A DNA stretch of 64,000 nt. It comes from Deltaproteobacteria bacterium. Lineage in GTDB: Bacteria; Desulfobacterota; GWC2-55-46. The translations under genes were made by a program, and so were the position numbers. Numbering within the stretch: position 1 is the stretch's first letter; each line of letters begins with the position of its first letter. The stretch lies in the NCBI GenBank assembly GCA_016218105.1, contig JACRET010000068.1, forward strand, positions 38,729-102,728, read 5' to 3'. The notes under the pieces are model-generated. The model saw nothing but the letters and a program-made list of their open reading frames with translations, was not told the origin of the DNA and searched no databases. Of the stretch, positions 1-25,512 are shown piece after piece.

Positions 1-2625
1 GCCTATCATCCTGCCGTAGAGGAATGTAGTGAACGCGGCGCCCTCTACTTCCTTATCCGACATCTTGCCGGAATTGAAGGCCTCCCAAACGATCTTCAGG
101 AGTATTACCGCTATCACGGCATCCACGTTTACGCAGTATACGTTTGAGCTTACCTTCGCGTCGAAGAGCGCCTTTACCAGGTTCTGGTAGAAGTCCAGGA
201 ATACGTTATATATCCCCTTCTCCTCGAAAAGGGAGGCTACAAACCTTTCCCTGGGATCGAAGTTCACTTCCTTGCCCTTGAAGATGGGATGGTTTACGCA
301 AGGGATCTTTAAATATTCGATATTTCCGAATGCCTTCTGGTCCGCCTTGTACTTAGCGTATCCCTTGGCGTATTCATCGGCTATCGCCTTCAGATTAAGG
401 TTATGGGATTTATTCGATGGGTCGTTAAGCCCTGTAGACTTGAACCTGTCTATCAGGAAAGCTATGGCCTCATAGCCGTTTCCGCCGTGGGCGAAGCCGG
501 TGTGCGTAAGGAAGCCGATGAACGCCTTGTTGATTTGCACCCTGTGCGGGTCTTCGGGGCCGTCCGCGCTGACCCCGCCTTTGCAGCCCTGCGCCGATAT
601 GGTGCCGGGGCCGTTTGAGATGATAAGGCCCAGGAGCATCGAGAACTCGAACCGCTCTATCTCAGTCGGCTTCCTGCCGATAAGCCCGAGAAACGACGCG
701 TCCGTAAACGTCCAGTCATTTATCAGCTCATCGTTCTTTATGCCGCAGAAACTGTCTTTTTTGTGCTTCGCGCCTGTGACGCTGCACCCGACAAAGCTTG
801 AGAATATCCTTGAGTACCAGGGCAGCGCCGTGATGGTGACCTTGGATATTGACCTCTTGATGAGAGGCTCCCACCCAAGCGTCATCCAGATAGCGGCAAA
901 AAGCGCGTCTGTCGAAGGCTTGCCACCGGCGGCTTCCTTTACGAACTCGATGAATACGGATTTCTTGCCGAGGGAGTCTATCTTCTTTAATATCACCTTT
1001 GAAAGCGAATCGTCCTTTGAGGCCGTAAGGGCTTTCCTGGCGTCAGCCGACAGGCCCTTTAGTATTTCCTTGTAATCGCAGGCGTCCGCCGCTGATACCA
1101 TGCCGGAGTTCTGGAAAAGCTCTAAAAGCTCATTTGAAACCGCGATAGCGCCCTTGACCCTGCCTTTCCCGATAATGGATATGGCGGCGGAAAGGACTGT
1201 ATTCGGGGAGCTTTCCGACTCTCTGGCGGCGTCGGCCGCGATATTGGCGGCGTCATCGGCATGGTTTAGATAAGCGTTGAAAGCGACGTTTAAGAGCGCC
1301 CTTTCGTATTCGGACGGATATCTCTTCAAGAGCGAGAAGTATAAATTCTCTTCAAGCGAGCGTTTGGAGGCGTCGAGCATGGTGACGTTATGGAGCTTCG
1401 TCACCTGGGTGTTCGGGTCCATCATCGACGCGCCGCTTGCGTCCTTCATCGCCTGCCTGGGGAACTGCGCGCCTACCTGCTTGTTTATATGGTCTATCTG
1501 CTCGTCATAAGGAGATTCCGCCCTGACGACGGGGGCGTCAAGCTCGCTGGGTATGGCCAGGCCGGCGTTATTCGCAAACCAGCACTTAAGGGACAGATCG
1601 CCCTTTGCCTCGAAGTCGGGCTTTATGCCGTTAAGCTCCATTACCTTCGTAAGGGCCTCCGGTATATGGGCGATGTTGGTAACTACAGCGCCTTTCTTTG
1701 AAAATATCGGGGTCTGCGGGGTGTATATGCCGTCGACGCCGAAGTAATCCATGTACCACTGCTCTTTTGCCTTTGCGTCGTCGCCCGATCCGGCGAGACT
1801 GCCGGCATGACCGCATGCCTTCGTCAAACGGGCCTTCCAGCGTCCGACCACGCAGGCAACCGTTGGCTTGTTGATCTCAAGGCCGTGCTCGTAATACCCG
1901 CCCGGCTCCGTATAGATAACGGCGGCCTTGCTCCTGGAGTCATTGTCGAGGGCATGGAAGAACTCCCTGGGGGCATAGTGGATATACACGTCCTTGCCGC
2001 TGGATATCGAAGTCGTCGTGCCCCATCCTTTCGTAAGGAGGTATACGGCGATGGTGGTCGTGAAGTTTCCTGAGTTTGAAAATAACGCTATGGAGCCTTT
2101 TACAAGGGACTCTTCAGGCTTATTGCCGCCGAGCGCCCCGCCTATCCTCACCTTGTTCCATGCATCGGCCACCCCAAGGCAGTTCCCGCCGAATACGTCT
2201 ATGCCGTTTGTCTGGCATATGGCCCTTACTATCCTCGCGTCGTTTACGGAGATCTTCTCGGTGAGTATTATGACCTTTTTAAGGTCGGGATTGTGTCTTA
2301 CGGCCTCAGCCACGCCGTCCTTCACCCCTGACGGAGGGAGATATATGACCGCCGTATTGAATTTCAGCCCCGCCTTTATTCCCTCTTTCACGGAGTTGAA
2401 GACCGGTATGTTCCCGATCTTTGTCTCAACGACCTGGCCGCTTCTTCCGGGGCTCGTACCGAAGACCACGTTCCCGCCAGAGTATACATGGCTTACGGGA
2501 GTGACGGTCTTGCTCTCGTTACCGGTTATGTTGAATACGCATACCCGGTCTTCCCTGGTGGCGATTTCAGCGAGTGAGTTTATTCCGACATAATAAGGAA
2601 ATTTTTTAACGCCTTCTTTGTGCAT
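1..2625 (-). CDS. aclA: ATP-citrate lyase alpha subunit (succinyl-CoA-ligase-like N-terminus plus citrate-synthase-like C-terminus), truncated at window edge
   Basis: Manual minus-strand translation from ATG at 2625: MHKEGVKKFPYYVGINSLAEIATREDRVCVFN..., with phospho-His motif ACGHAGSLAG and C-terminal GFLTHTGFAHGGNGYEAIAFLIDRF. Open through position 1 (875 codons). Absent from the ORF track because it has no stop in the window. Confidence 0.9.
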   Translation of the reverse strand, partial: MHKEGVKKFPYYVGINSLAEIATREDRVCVFNITGNESKTVTPVSHVYSGGNVVFGTSPGRSGQVVETKIGNIPVFNSVKEGIKAGLKFNTAVIYLPPSGVKDGVAEAVRHNPDLKKVIILTEKISVNDARIVRAICQTNGIDVFGGNCLGVADAWNKVRIGGALGGNKPEESLVKGSIALFSNSGNFTTTIAVYLLTKGWGTTTSISSGKDVYIHYAPREFFHALDNDSRSKAAVIYTEPGGYYEHGLEINKPTVACVVGRWKARLTKACGHAGSLAGSGDDAKAKEQWYMDYFGVDGIYTPQTPIFSKKGAVVTNIAHIPEALTKVMELNGIKPDFEAKGDLSLKCWFANNAGLAIPSELDAPVVRAESPYDEQIDHINKQVGAQFPRQAMKDASGASMMDPNTQVTKLHNVTMLDASKRSLEENLYFSLLKRYPSEYERALLNVAFNAYLNHADDAANIAADAARESESSPNTVLSAAISIIGKGRVKGAIAVSNELLELFQNSGMVSAADACDYKEILKGLSADARKALTASKDDSLSKVILKKIDSLGKKSVFIEFVKEAAGGKPSTDALFAAIWMTLGWEPLIKRSISKVTITALPWYSRIFSSFVGCSVTGAKHKKDSFCGIKNDELINDWTFTDASFLGLIGRKPTEIERFEFSMLLGLIISNGPGTISAQGCKGGVSADGPEDPHRVQINKAFIGFLTHTGFAHGGNGYEAIAFLIDRFKSTGLNDPSNKSHNLNLKAIADEYAKGYAKYKADQKAFGNIEYLKIPCVNHPIFKGKEVNFDPRERFVASLFEEKGIYNVFLDFYQNLVKALFDAKVSSNVYCVNVDAVIAVILLKIVWEAFNSGKMSDKEVEGAAFTTFLYGRMIG

Positions 2626-2659: not shown

Positions 2660-3964
2660 TTACTTTGCGGCTACACCGGCCCTGGACCCCGAGAACATCG
2701 GGTTGGAGCTATTGGCAAAAAGCGCCCTGCCTTCCTTCTCCATCCATTTATCGACGTTTAAAGCATAGTTTACGACCTCGCTCATGGCTGAGTCATGGCC
2801 GAATATCCTGTAAGGAAGTTTTAAATTCTCCAGAGTATCTCTCATATAGGCCATGCCGCGTATGAGGTTCGGGCCGCCCCTGCCGATAACGACATACAGG
2901 GGTGTGGGGCCGTTCTTGTGGAAGTAATCCTTCAAGGCGTCCGCCATTGCCCTGAATGTCTCGAAGATATCGGTGTTGTTGGCCTTGCCGCCGATGATGA
3001 ACAGGACGTTTGACTGCTTGAGCCAGTACTTGAAGCATATCCTTGATATCTGGAACATCTTCTCGTAGGGCGGGTTGCCTCCGAAGTCGGAGGATATCGT
3101 GGCCCTCTCGCCCAAAAGCTCGGTCACGAGGGCGTTGGCGCCGCCGCCGAATGTAGGGGCGGTTATCGTGCCCCTGGGATTGATGACGAAGACGTCGCTC
3201 TGGCCCTGATATGTGCGAAGCTGGTTGATCTCCTGCTCGAATTCCGAATAGTCTGAAGCGAAGAGGTGCGCGGGAAGCTCAAGCCTCTTCCAGGCCGGGT
3301 TGTCGAGGTCGAACGAGCCCTTGAAGTCGCAGGCAACAGGCACCAGCCTGCCCTTGCTGTCCGGGGACATCCTTATCGGATTAAGCTCCAGTGTCGACAT
3401 CCCGTAGTTGTTATAAAGCGTCCATAGCTTGGGAAGGTTCTGCACGAGCGGGCTGATTATTTCGCTCGGCGCCCCAAGCTCCGTAAGCGCGTTGGATATA
3501 TGGAATGATTTAAGGCCAGTGAGCGCGTCGAAAGGAATTTCCCTTATCTTGTCTTTGGGAAGCTCTTCGATGTCCATGCCGCCGTGATGGGTGATCGTCA
3601 TTATCGGCGCGCGGTATAAGGTGGAGTCGGAAATGGAAAAGTAAACCTCGTGCTCAGCCGGCACCCCGCCTTCGAAGGTCACGCCGTCGGCCTTTACGGT
3701 GGTGTTGCCGAATGTATGCTCGATAAAATATAATCTTTCTTTTTCCTTAAGGGCGGTGGCTATGTCCTTTGCCCTGCCAATAAGGCCAGCCTTGCCCTTC
3801 TTACCGACTCCGCCCTTGAATATGGGTTTTATGAACACCTGTCCGCATCTCTTGATGAGGTCTTTTATCTCATCAACGCTGGCTTCAGGGCCGAGCACCT
3901 CGGCTGAAGGGAATTCAACCCGTTTTAAGAGCTTACCTCCCCAAAGAAGGCCTGTAAGTTGCAT
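2660..3964 (-). CDS. aclB: ATP-citrate lyase beta subunit
   Basis: 434 aa, ATP-grasp/succinyl-CoA-synthetase-beta-like; FVINPRGTITAPTFGGGANALVTELLGERATISSDFGGNPPYEKMFQ; adjacent to aclA. Confidence 0.92.
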   Translation of the reverse strand: MQLTGLLWGGKLLKRVEFPSAEVLGPEASVDEIKDLIKRCGQVFIKPIFKGGVGKKGKAGLIGRAKDIATALKEKERLYFIEHTFGNTTVKADGVTFEGGVPAEHEVYFSISDSTLYRAPIMTITHHGGMDIEELPKDKIREIPFDALTGLKSFHISNALTELGAPSEIISPLVQNLPKLWTLYNNYGMSTLELNPIRMSPDSKGRLVPVACDFKGSFDLDNPAWKRLELPAHLFASDYSEFEQEINQLRTYQGQSDVFVINPRGTITAPTFGGGANALVTELLGERATISSDFGGNPPYEKMFQISRICFKYWLKQSNVLFIIGGKANNTDIFETFRAMADALKDYFHKNGPTPLYVVIGRGGPNLIRGMAYMRDTLENLKLPYRIFGHDSAMSEVVNYALNVDKWMEKEGRALFANSSNPMFSGSRAGVAAK

Positions 3965-4013: not shown

Positions 4014-6326
<2,313 letters not shown>

Positions 6327-6382: not shown

Positions 6383-6446
6383 AAAAAAAACCGCCTGGGT
6401 GCGCAAAAAAAATGAATTATCTTCATCGTTTTTTTGCCCAGACGGT
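6383..6446 (-). terminator. Intrinsic terminator / expression platform of the ZTP-riboswitch-like leader
   Basis: Minus strand ACCGTCTGGG...CCCAGGCGGT followed by TTTTTTTT. The 5' arm is the 3' pseudoknot strand of the aptamer. Confidence 0.8.
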
Positions 6447-6508
6447 CGGCTCTTATATTCTGGTTCCCGCTTCCCGGTGGTGACCACCTTGATTCCGTCA
6501 GTCGCGGT
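6436..6508 (-). ncRNA. ZTP (pfl motif) riboswitch aptamer
   Basis: Minus strand: ACCGCGACTGACGGAATCAAGGTGGTCACCACCGGGAAGCGGGAACCAGAATATAAGAGCCGACCGTCTGGGCA. P1 CCGC/GCGG, GGTGG/CCACC hairpin followed by GGGAAGC, and pseudoknot ACGG with CCGT in the conserved ...CCGTCTGGGCA 3' end. Confidence 0.88.
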
Positions 6509-6539
6509 TTCCTGGCTGCTGCCTATGTTTAGCGGAGAA

Positions 6540-6568
6540 AATATACAGGAAAGCAGGATAATTGTCAA
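6540..6568 (-). promoter_or_regulatory. Sigma70-like promoter driving the riboswitch leader
   Basis: Minus strand TTGACA (6568-6563), 17-nt spacer, TATATT (6545-6540); ~32 nt upstream of the aptamer. Confidence 0.75.
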
Positions 6569-25436: not shown

Positions 25437-25512
25437 TGGAGCGGGAGACGGGTCTCGAACCCGCGACCTCAACCTTGGCAAGGTTGCGCTCTACCAACTG
25501 AGCTACTCCCGC
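25437..25512 (-). tRNA. tRNA-Gly (anticodon GCC), encoded CCA
   Basis: Minus strand GCGGGAGTAGCTCAGTTGGTAGAGCGCAACCTTGCCAAGGTTGAGGTCGCGGGTTCGAGACCCGTCTCCCGCTCCA; complete cloverleaf. Confidence 0.97.

Follow-up and report, generated by a model that had tools for sequence, protein, structure and literature searches.

Riboswitches that sense the purine intermediate ZMP (5-aminoimidazole-4-carboxamide ribonucleotide) and its triphosphate, ZTP, are known to regulate purine and one-carbon (C1) genes locally. What, then, does such an RNA do in front of icd, aclB and aclA, the genes for isocitrate dehydrogenase and the two subunits of ATP-citrate lyase? The question is raised by a 64 kb stretch of contig JACRET010000068.1 from a Deltaproteobacteria bacterium (Desulfobacterota; GWC2-55-46), hereafter the window, whose minus strand carries a ZTP-type element directly upstream of these genes. 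From sequence analysis of this locus and its relatives, we consider it likely that the element is a genuine ON-type ZTP/ZMP terminator riboswitch that adds C1-stress-inducible transcription of the icd-acl operon and is part of a C1-supply regulon. Coordinates are those of the window, and gene inventories of genomes are based on family searches. The leader contains the following elements:

6540..6568 (-): promoter P1, a sigma-70-type TTGACA-N17-TATATT element matching 11 of 12 consensus positions, which would produce the riboswitch leader
6429..6515 (-): ZMP/ZTP riboswitch aptamer (pfl motif), RF01750 at 50.4 bits, with covariation over 37 relatives
6499-6495 (GACGG) and 6445-6441 (CCGUC) (-): the pseudoknot strands, within the aptamer
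6383..6446 (-): expression platform, an intrinsic terminator identified by folding, with its 5' arm at 6445-6437, its 3' arm at 6399-6391 and U8 at 6390-6383
6285..6313 (-): promoter P2, a conserved promoter-like TTGACA-N17-TTTAGT between the terminator and icd, a predicted ZTP-independent start

The RNA itself is an ordinary member of the ZTP riboswitch class, and what is new is its regulon. Its RF01750 match exceeds the gathering score of 39 (E 3e-5 in the 64 kb window) and runs the full length of the model (1-86 of 86), and the window aptamer is the lowest scorer among the five ZTP elements of its own genome. We aligned 37 icd/acl aptamers and compared the alignment with 500 shuffles. Standard pairs filled 85.4% of pair cells, against 80.3% after shuffling; two-sided changes occurred at 12 pairs, and none of the 500 shuffles reached the observed covariation score. 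Helix P1 showed two-sided changes at nine of its ten pairs and helix P2 was paired in 95.9% of cells, while in helix P3 the three inner pairs were nearly invariant and the two outer pairs mostly unpaired. The GACGG/CCGUC pseudoknot, which joins J1/2 to the P3 loop, was present in all 37 leaders, and the CUGGGC strand of the ligand site and the ACUG core were invariant across them. Between groups the pseudoknot shows a G-C to A-U double change: of 112 cases scored, 106 were GACG/CGUC, six were GGCG/CGCC and none was mixed. A chance match is ruled out by the Rfam score, the recurrence of the arrangement and the covariation. As a separate observation, two aptamers (L191:2461-2581 and L194:101-220) are interrupted immediately 5' of helix P2 by some 33 extra nt, which form a near-perfect hairpin (CCCCCACACCAAA...TTTGGTGTGGGGG). 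The inserted sequence hardly differs between the two, a sucC leader and an icd leader from different genomes, and it may represent a mobile or repeated element.

Downstream of the ligand site, the pseudoknot/P3 strand of the aptamer, CCGUCUGGG (6445-6437), pairs with CCCAGGCGG (6399-6391), after which the eight U follow. Segment 6448-6383 has a folding energy of -26.7 kcal/mol (z = -5.96), a stability equalled by none of 200 shuffles, and the terminator fold wins when the whole unliganded leader is folded. A complementary arm to the aptamer 3' strand followed by a U-tract is found in 34 of 40 icd/acl leaders, compared with 11.7% of shuffled controls; by the same strict criterion, rnfC leaders show it less often (6/30). 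At the place of promoter P1, a score of 9-11 consensus positions is reached by most of the class's ZTP leaders, compared with about 11% of shuffles. Because the pseudoknot/P3 strand doubles as the 5' arm of the terminator, an ON switch is expected. In ZTP riboswitches elsewhere the terminator likewise competes with the pseudoknot/P3 strand, giving ON logic (PMC7337938; PMC2864571), and transcription-termination ON logic should follow here from the anatomy together with work on other ZTP riboswitches (PMC7337938; PMC12304844).

Much of this anatomy had been read from the letters alone in an initial annotation. The ZTP riboswitch identity that it proposed is upheld by Rfam, by covariation and by recurrence of the arrangement in 41 class genomes, the outcome of the covariance-model search and the survey of relatives that it had suggested. 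Its TTGACA-N17-TATATT promoter is found at 6568-6540(-), sequence and folding agree with its pairing of the aptamer 3' strand with a terminator arm ahead of eight U, and its ON-type logic gains support from a terminator arm and an aptamer that use the same strand and so are mutually exclusive.

Is the arrangement peculiar to this operon? We surveyed first 41 relatives and then 65 class genomes, comparing the positions of ZTP elements and icd and reading downstream genes from the DNA, and located 107 in-class elements. Monomeric icd follows 38 of them, in 38 genomes, a dimeric icd with aclBA follows one (G130, L185), and aclBA follows another, with icd elsewhere (G036, L203). A further 30 precede rnfC (TIGR01945); 21 precede an aminotransferase gene, then serA wherever the downstream DNA was read; four precede sucCD, with kor genes behind where read; and two, plus two weak ones, precede pntA. 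The rest lie before a CPA2 antiporter gene (five, in one genus), before kup (one), before a pyrophosphatase gene (one, weak) or at a contig end (one). Neither purH, fhs, glyA, folD nor pfl lies directly behind any of the 107. The window conforms to this pattern in that its downstream genes, icd-aclB-aclA, are not directly in purine or formyl-tetrahydrofolate (formyl-THF) synthesis, to which the serine-synthesis targets are linked only indirectly. In the window's family, ZTP elements precede icd in all 25 genomes with a readable icd leader, and an unfiltered scan of the class added one weak icd leader (38 bits, L229). Outside the class but within the phylum, eight elements were placed before fhs (two), glyA (two copies), serA and an aminotransferase-serA pair, with two uncertain cases. 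Spread of the icd-linked element to other groups found no support: a class-trained model detected no ZTP element near icd in 79 named outgroup icd loci, and 15 whole genomes among these outgroups (Chlorobi, Nitrospira, Geothrix, Geobacter and others) have none. By the genes it precedes, the ZTP regulon of this class looks as though it has moved off purine and folate genes to an apparent supply chain for C1 units, comprising the reverse tricarboxylic acid (TCA) cycle, suppliers of reductant and serine synthesis.

The targets further indicate that a pathway, rather than a single gene, is under control. In G130 the dimeric NADP-icd behind the switch (NF006156, 635 bits; PF00180) is unrelated to the monomeric enzyme, and aclB and aclA come next; in G036 the switch precedes aclB-aclA and icd lies on another contig; in family f9 (L242) it precedes sucC-sucD-korA-korB-korC. 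Regulation specific to icd is ruled out, as the switch stays with a non-homologous icd or without any icd in the operon. The icd-aclB pair occurs in the class with or without the switch, which must therefore have been gained by, or lost from, a standing operon. On the tree of Icd proteins the ZTP label changes seven times by parsimony, at least three of these on well-supported branches.

Between the terminator and icd lies promoter P2, which the initial annotation had missed. Of 37 icd leaders, 29 have a TTGAC core at its place, where 5.3 would be expected; rnfC leaders (18/26 vs 2.0 expected) and aminotransferase leaders (10/21 vs 3.3) carry similar elements. Each of these three targets has its own version of the element, with an unusual -10-like part (TTTAGT, TTAGCT), and two icd leaders that have no ZTP element (L053 and L227) carry it as well. 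We considered a regulator-binding dyad (TTGAC..GTCAA) in its stead; families f2 and f4 do not preserve that dyad, so a promoter is the simpler explanation. Promoter P2 is probably a ZTP-independent promoter, which is a prediction in view of its atypical -10 (TTTAGT). The presence of a conserved promoter-like element 3' of the terminator makes it unlikely that the switch is the sole control, and the switch probably adds inducible transcription on top rather than gating the operon alone.

These elements suggest the following mechanism. RNA from promoter P1 would fold into the pfl aptamer. When 10-formyl-THF runs short, ZMP and ZTP would accumulate and stabilise the pseudoknot, which would block the terminator at 6446-6383 and permit read-through into icd-aclB-aclA; with no ligand the terminator would form and transcription from promoter P1 would end. 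Promoter P2 would supply basal, ZTP-independent expression, to which the switch would make a C1-stress-inducible addition. Rnf provides reduced ferredoxin, the transhydrogenase PntAB provides NADPH, and serine feeds 5,10-methylene-THF. Higher ZMP/ZTP would accordingly raise reverse-TCA enzymes, Rnf, PntAB and serine synthesis, with serine restoring C1 units. The metabolic setting is compatible with this scheme: 29 of 31 relatives encode purH, so the ligand ZMP should be made. The reverse-TCA gene set is found, with ATP-citrate lyase and isocitrate dehydrogenase in the operon and an alpha subunit of 2-oxoglutarate:ferredoxin oxidoreductase type in the genome. This subunit matches its subfamily model, below the cut-off, in most of 13 genomes tested, G000 among them.

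Several observations weigh against a switch that governs reductive carbon flow for the sake of C1 supply. The window element's own helix P1 is imperfect, with a 3x3 internal loop that the initial annotation had overlooked. In about ten genomes of the class the icd leader can be read and no ZTP element is detectable, so the link is dispensable. Citrate synthase is also encoded in G000 and most relatives tested, so the TCA cycle may not run in the reductive direction, and formyl-THF synthetase, which G000 and most members of its family possess, rules out serine as the only C1 source. Promoter P2, finally, could let icd be transcribed regardless of the switch.

This last point leads to the alternative in which the aptamer is real and most icd-acl transcription nevertheless comes from promoter P2, so that the switch hardly changes enzyme levels. 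The conservation of promoter P2 across families, even where the switch is missing, speaks for it. We regard it as unlikely, though deserving of consideration, because aptamer, terminator overlap and promoter P1 are all maintained with covariation, which argues for selection for function, and the -10 element of promoter P2 is poor. Alternatively, the switch might work as described and serve the supply of NADPH and 2-oxoglutarate for folate reduction and amino-donor metabolism, in the oxidative direction and apart from carbon fixation. An icd that is the NADP-dependent equivalog, pntA among the ZTP targets and the presence of citrate synthase would all fit; against it, acl, sucCD-kor and rnf are targets too and none of them makes NADPH, and the switch of G036 precedes aclBA with no icd behind it. 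We think this explanation quite unlikely.

It is also conceivable that the aptamer has changed its ligand and senses some other metabolite linked to flux through central carbon metabolism, given targets unlike the classical regulon and an A-U pseudoknot pair typical of the class. The invariance of the CUGGGC strand and the ACUG core makes such a change very improbable, as does the nature of the pseudoknot variant, a double change that preserves pairing and leaves the CUGGGC strand unaltered. The same A-U variant is also found beyond the class, in the fhs leaders L208 and L210, which share a matching terminator arm as well. A ZTP/ZMP-responsive ON switch that supplements basal transcription thus remains the reading we prefer.

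The genes behind the switch are as follows:

4014..6236 (-): icd, monomeric NADP-dependent isocitrate dehydrogenase (PF03971, 1353 bits; TIGR00178, 1368 bits)
2660..3964 (-): aclB, ATP-citrate lyase ATP-grasp/citrate-binding subunit, 434 aa (PF16114, PF08442)
1..2625 (-): aclA, ATP-citrate lyase large subunit, 903 aa (PF13607, PF02629, citryl-CoA-lyase-like C-terminus)

These Pfam and TIGR matches agree with the icd, aclB and aclA of the initial annotation, and the TIGR00178 match marks the window's icd as the NADP-dependent equivalog. In domain content, AclB and the N-terminus of AclA resemble both two-subunit ATP-citrate lyase and citryl-CoA synthetase plus lyase: the best solved relative of AclB is the citryl-CoA synthetase large subunit (6hxq_B), and the N-terminus of the 903-residue AclA is closest to the small subunit of that enzyme. 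AclA also has a long middle region without any Pfam or NCBIfam match; PDB chain 6hxj_B, an ATP-citrate lyase alpha subunit, comprises 617 residues. The 3' end of aclA lies about 87 nt outside the window, and pilus-type genes come next. The sole other Rfam match within the window is a tRNA gene with anticodon GCC (glycine) at 25440-25512 (-).

The survey yielded some further observations. A CPA2 cation:proton antiporter gene in the window's genus and a gene for a Kup-like potassium transporter in G130 stand behind ZTP elements at L099, L074, L077, L079, L080 and L184. Sub-threshold ZTP-like matches (33-38 bits) precede an inorganic pyrophosphatase gene and pntA (L093:201-279, L094:201-274 and L095:2522-2665), two of the three without the 3' pseudoknot strand inside the match. 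In G290 (L201) the icd behind the switch is broken by several stops or frameshifts, possibly through assembly error.

Compared with the RF01750 pfl riboswitches of Thermosinus carboxydivorans and Clostridium beijerinckii, the element has the same aptamer, pseudoknot, terminator competition and ON logic; it differs in its targets, here icd-acl, sucCD-kor, rnf, pnt and serA, and in the second promoter-like element behind the terminator. The fhs and glyA elements of the same phylum (L204, L208, L210) again share the aptamer, but they precede canonical C1 genes and not reverse-TCA genes. Among the titles and abstracts returned from open-licence literature, none linked ZTP or a riboswitch to carbon fixation, the reductive TCA cycle, ATP citrate lyase or the Rnf complex.

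The initial annotation had proposed a link between folate/purine starvation and reverse-TCA carbon flux. A link between folate/C1 stress and reverse-TCA genes is strengthened by the further targets sucCD-korABC, rnf, pntA and serA, and sole control by the switch is made unlikely by promoter P2. The gene contexts suggest that bacteria of this class tie central carbon metabolism to C1 supply. A bolder proposal, about which we are almost evenly divided and lean slightly against, is that the ZTP alarmone acts in this class as a global signal of autotrophic carbon supply, low 10-formyl-THF jointly inducing the reverse TCA cycle, regeneration of ferredoxin and NADPH, and serine synthesis, with purine and folate genes left entirely. 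The class as a whole appears to put a ZTP sensor on genes that supply carbon skeletons and serine as well as reduced ferredoxin and NADPH. As far as the open literature searched shows, this would be the first time that a riboswitch is assigned to a pathway of carbon fixation, and it opens a direct test of the old ZTP alarmone idea for autotrophic carbon flow.
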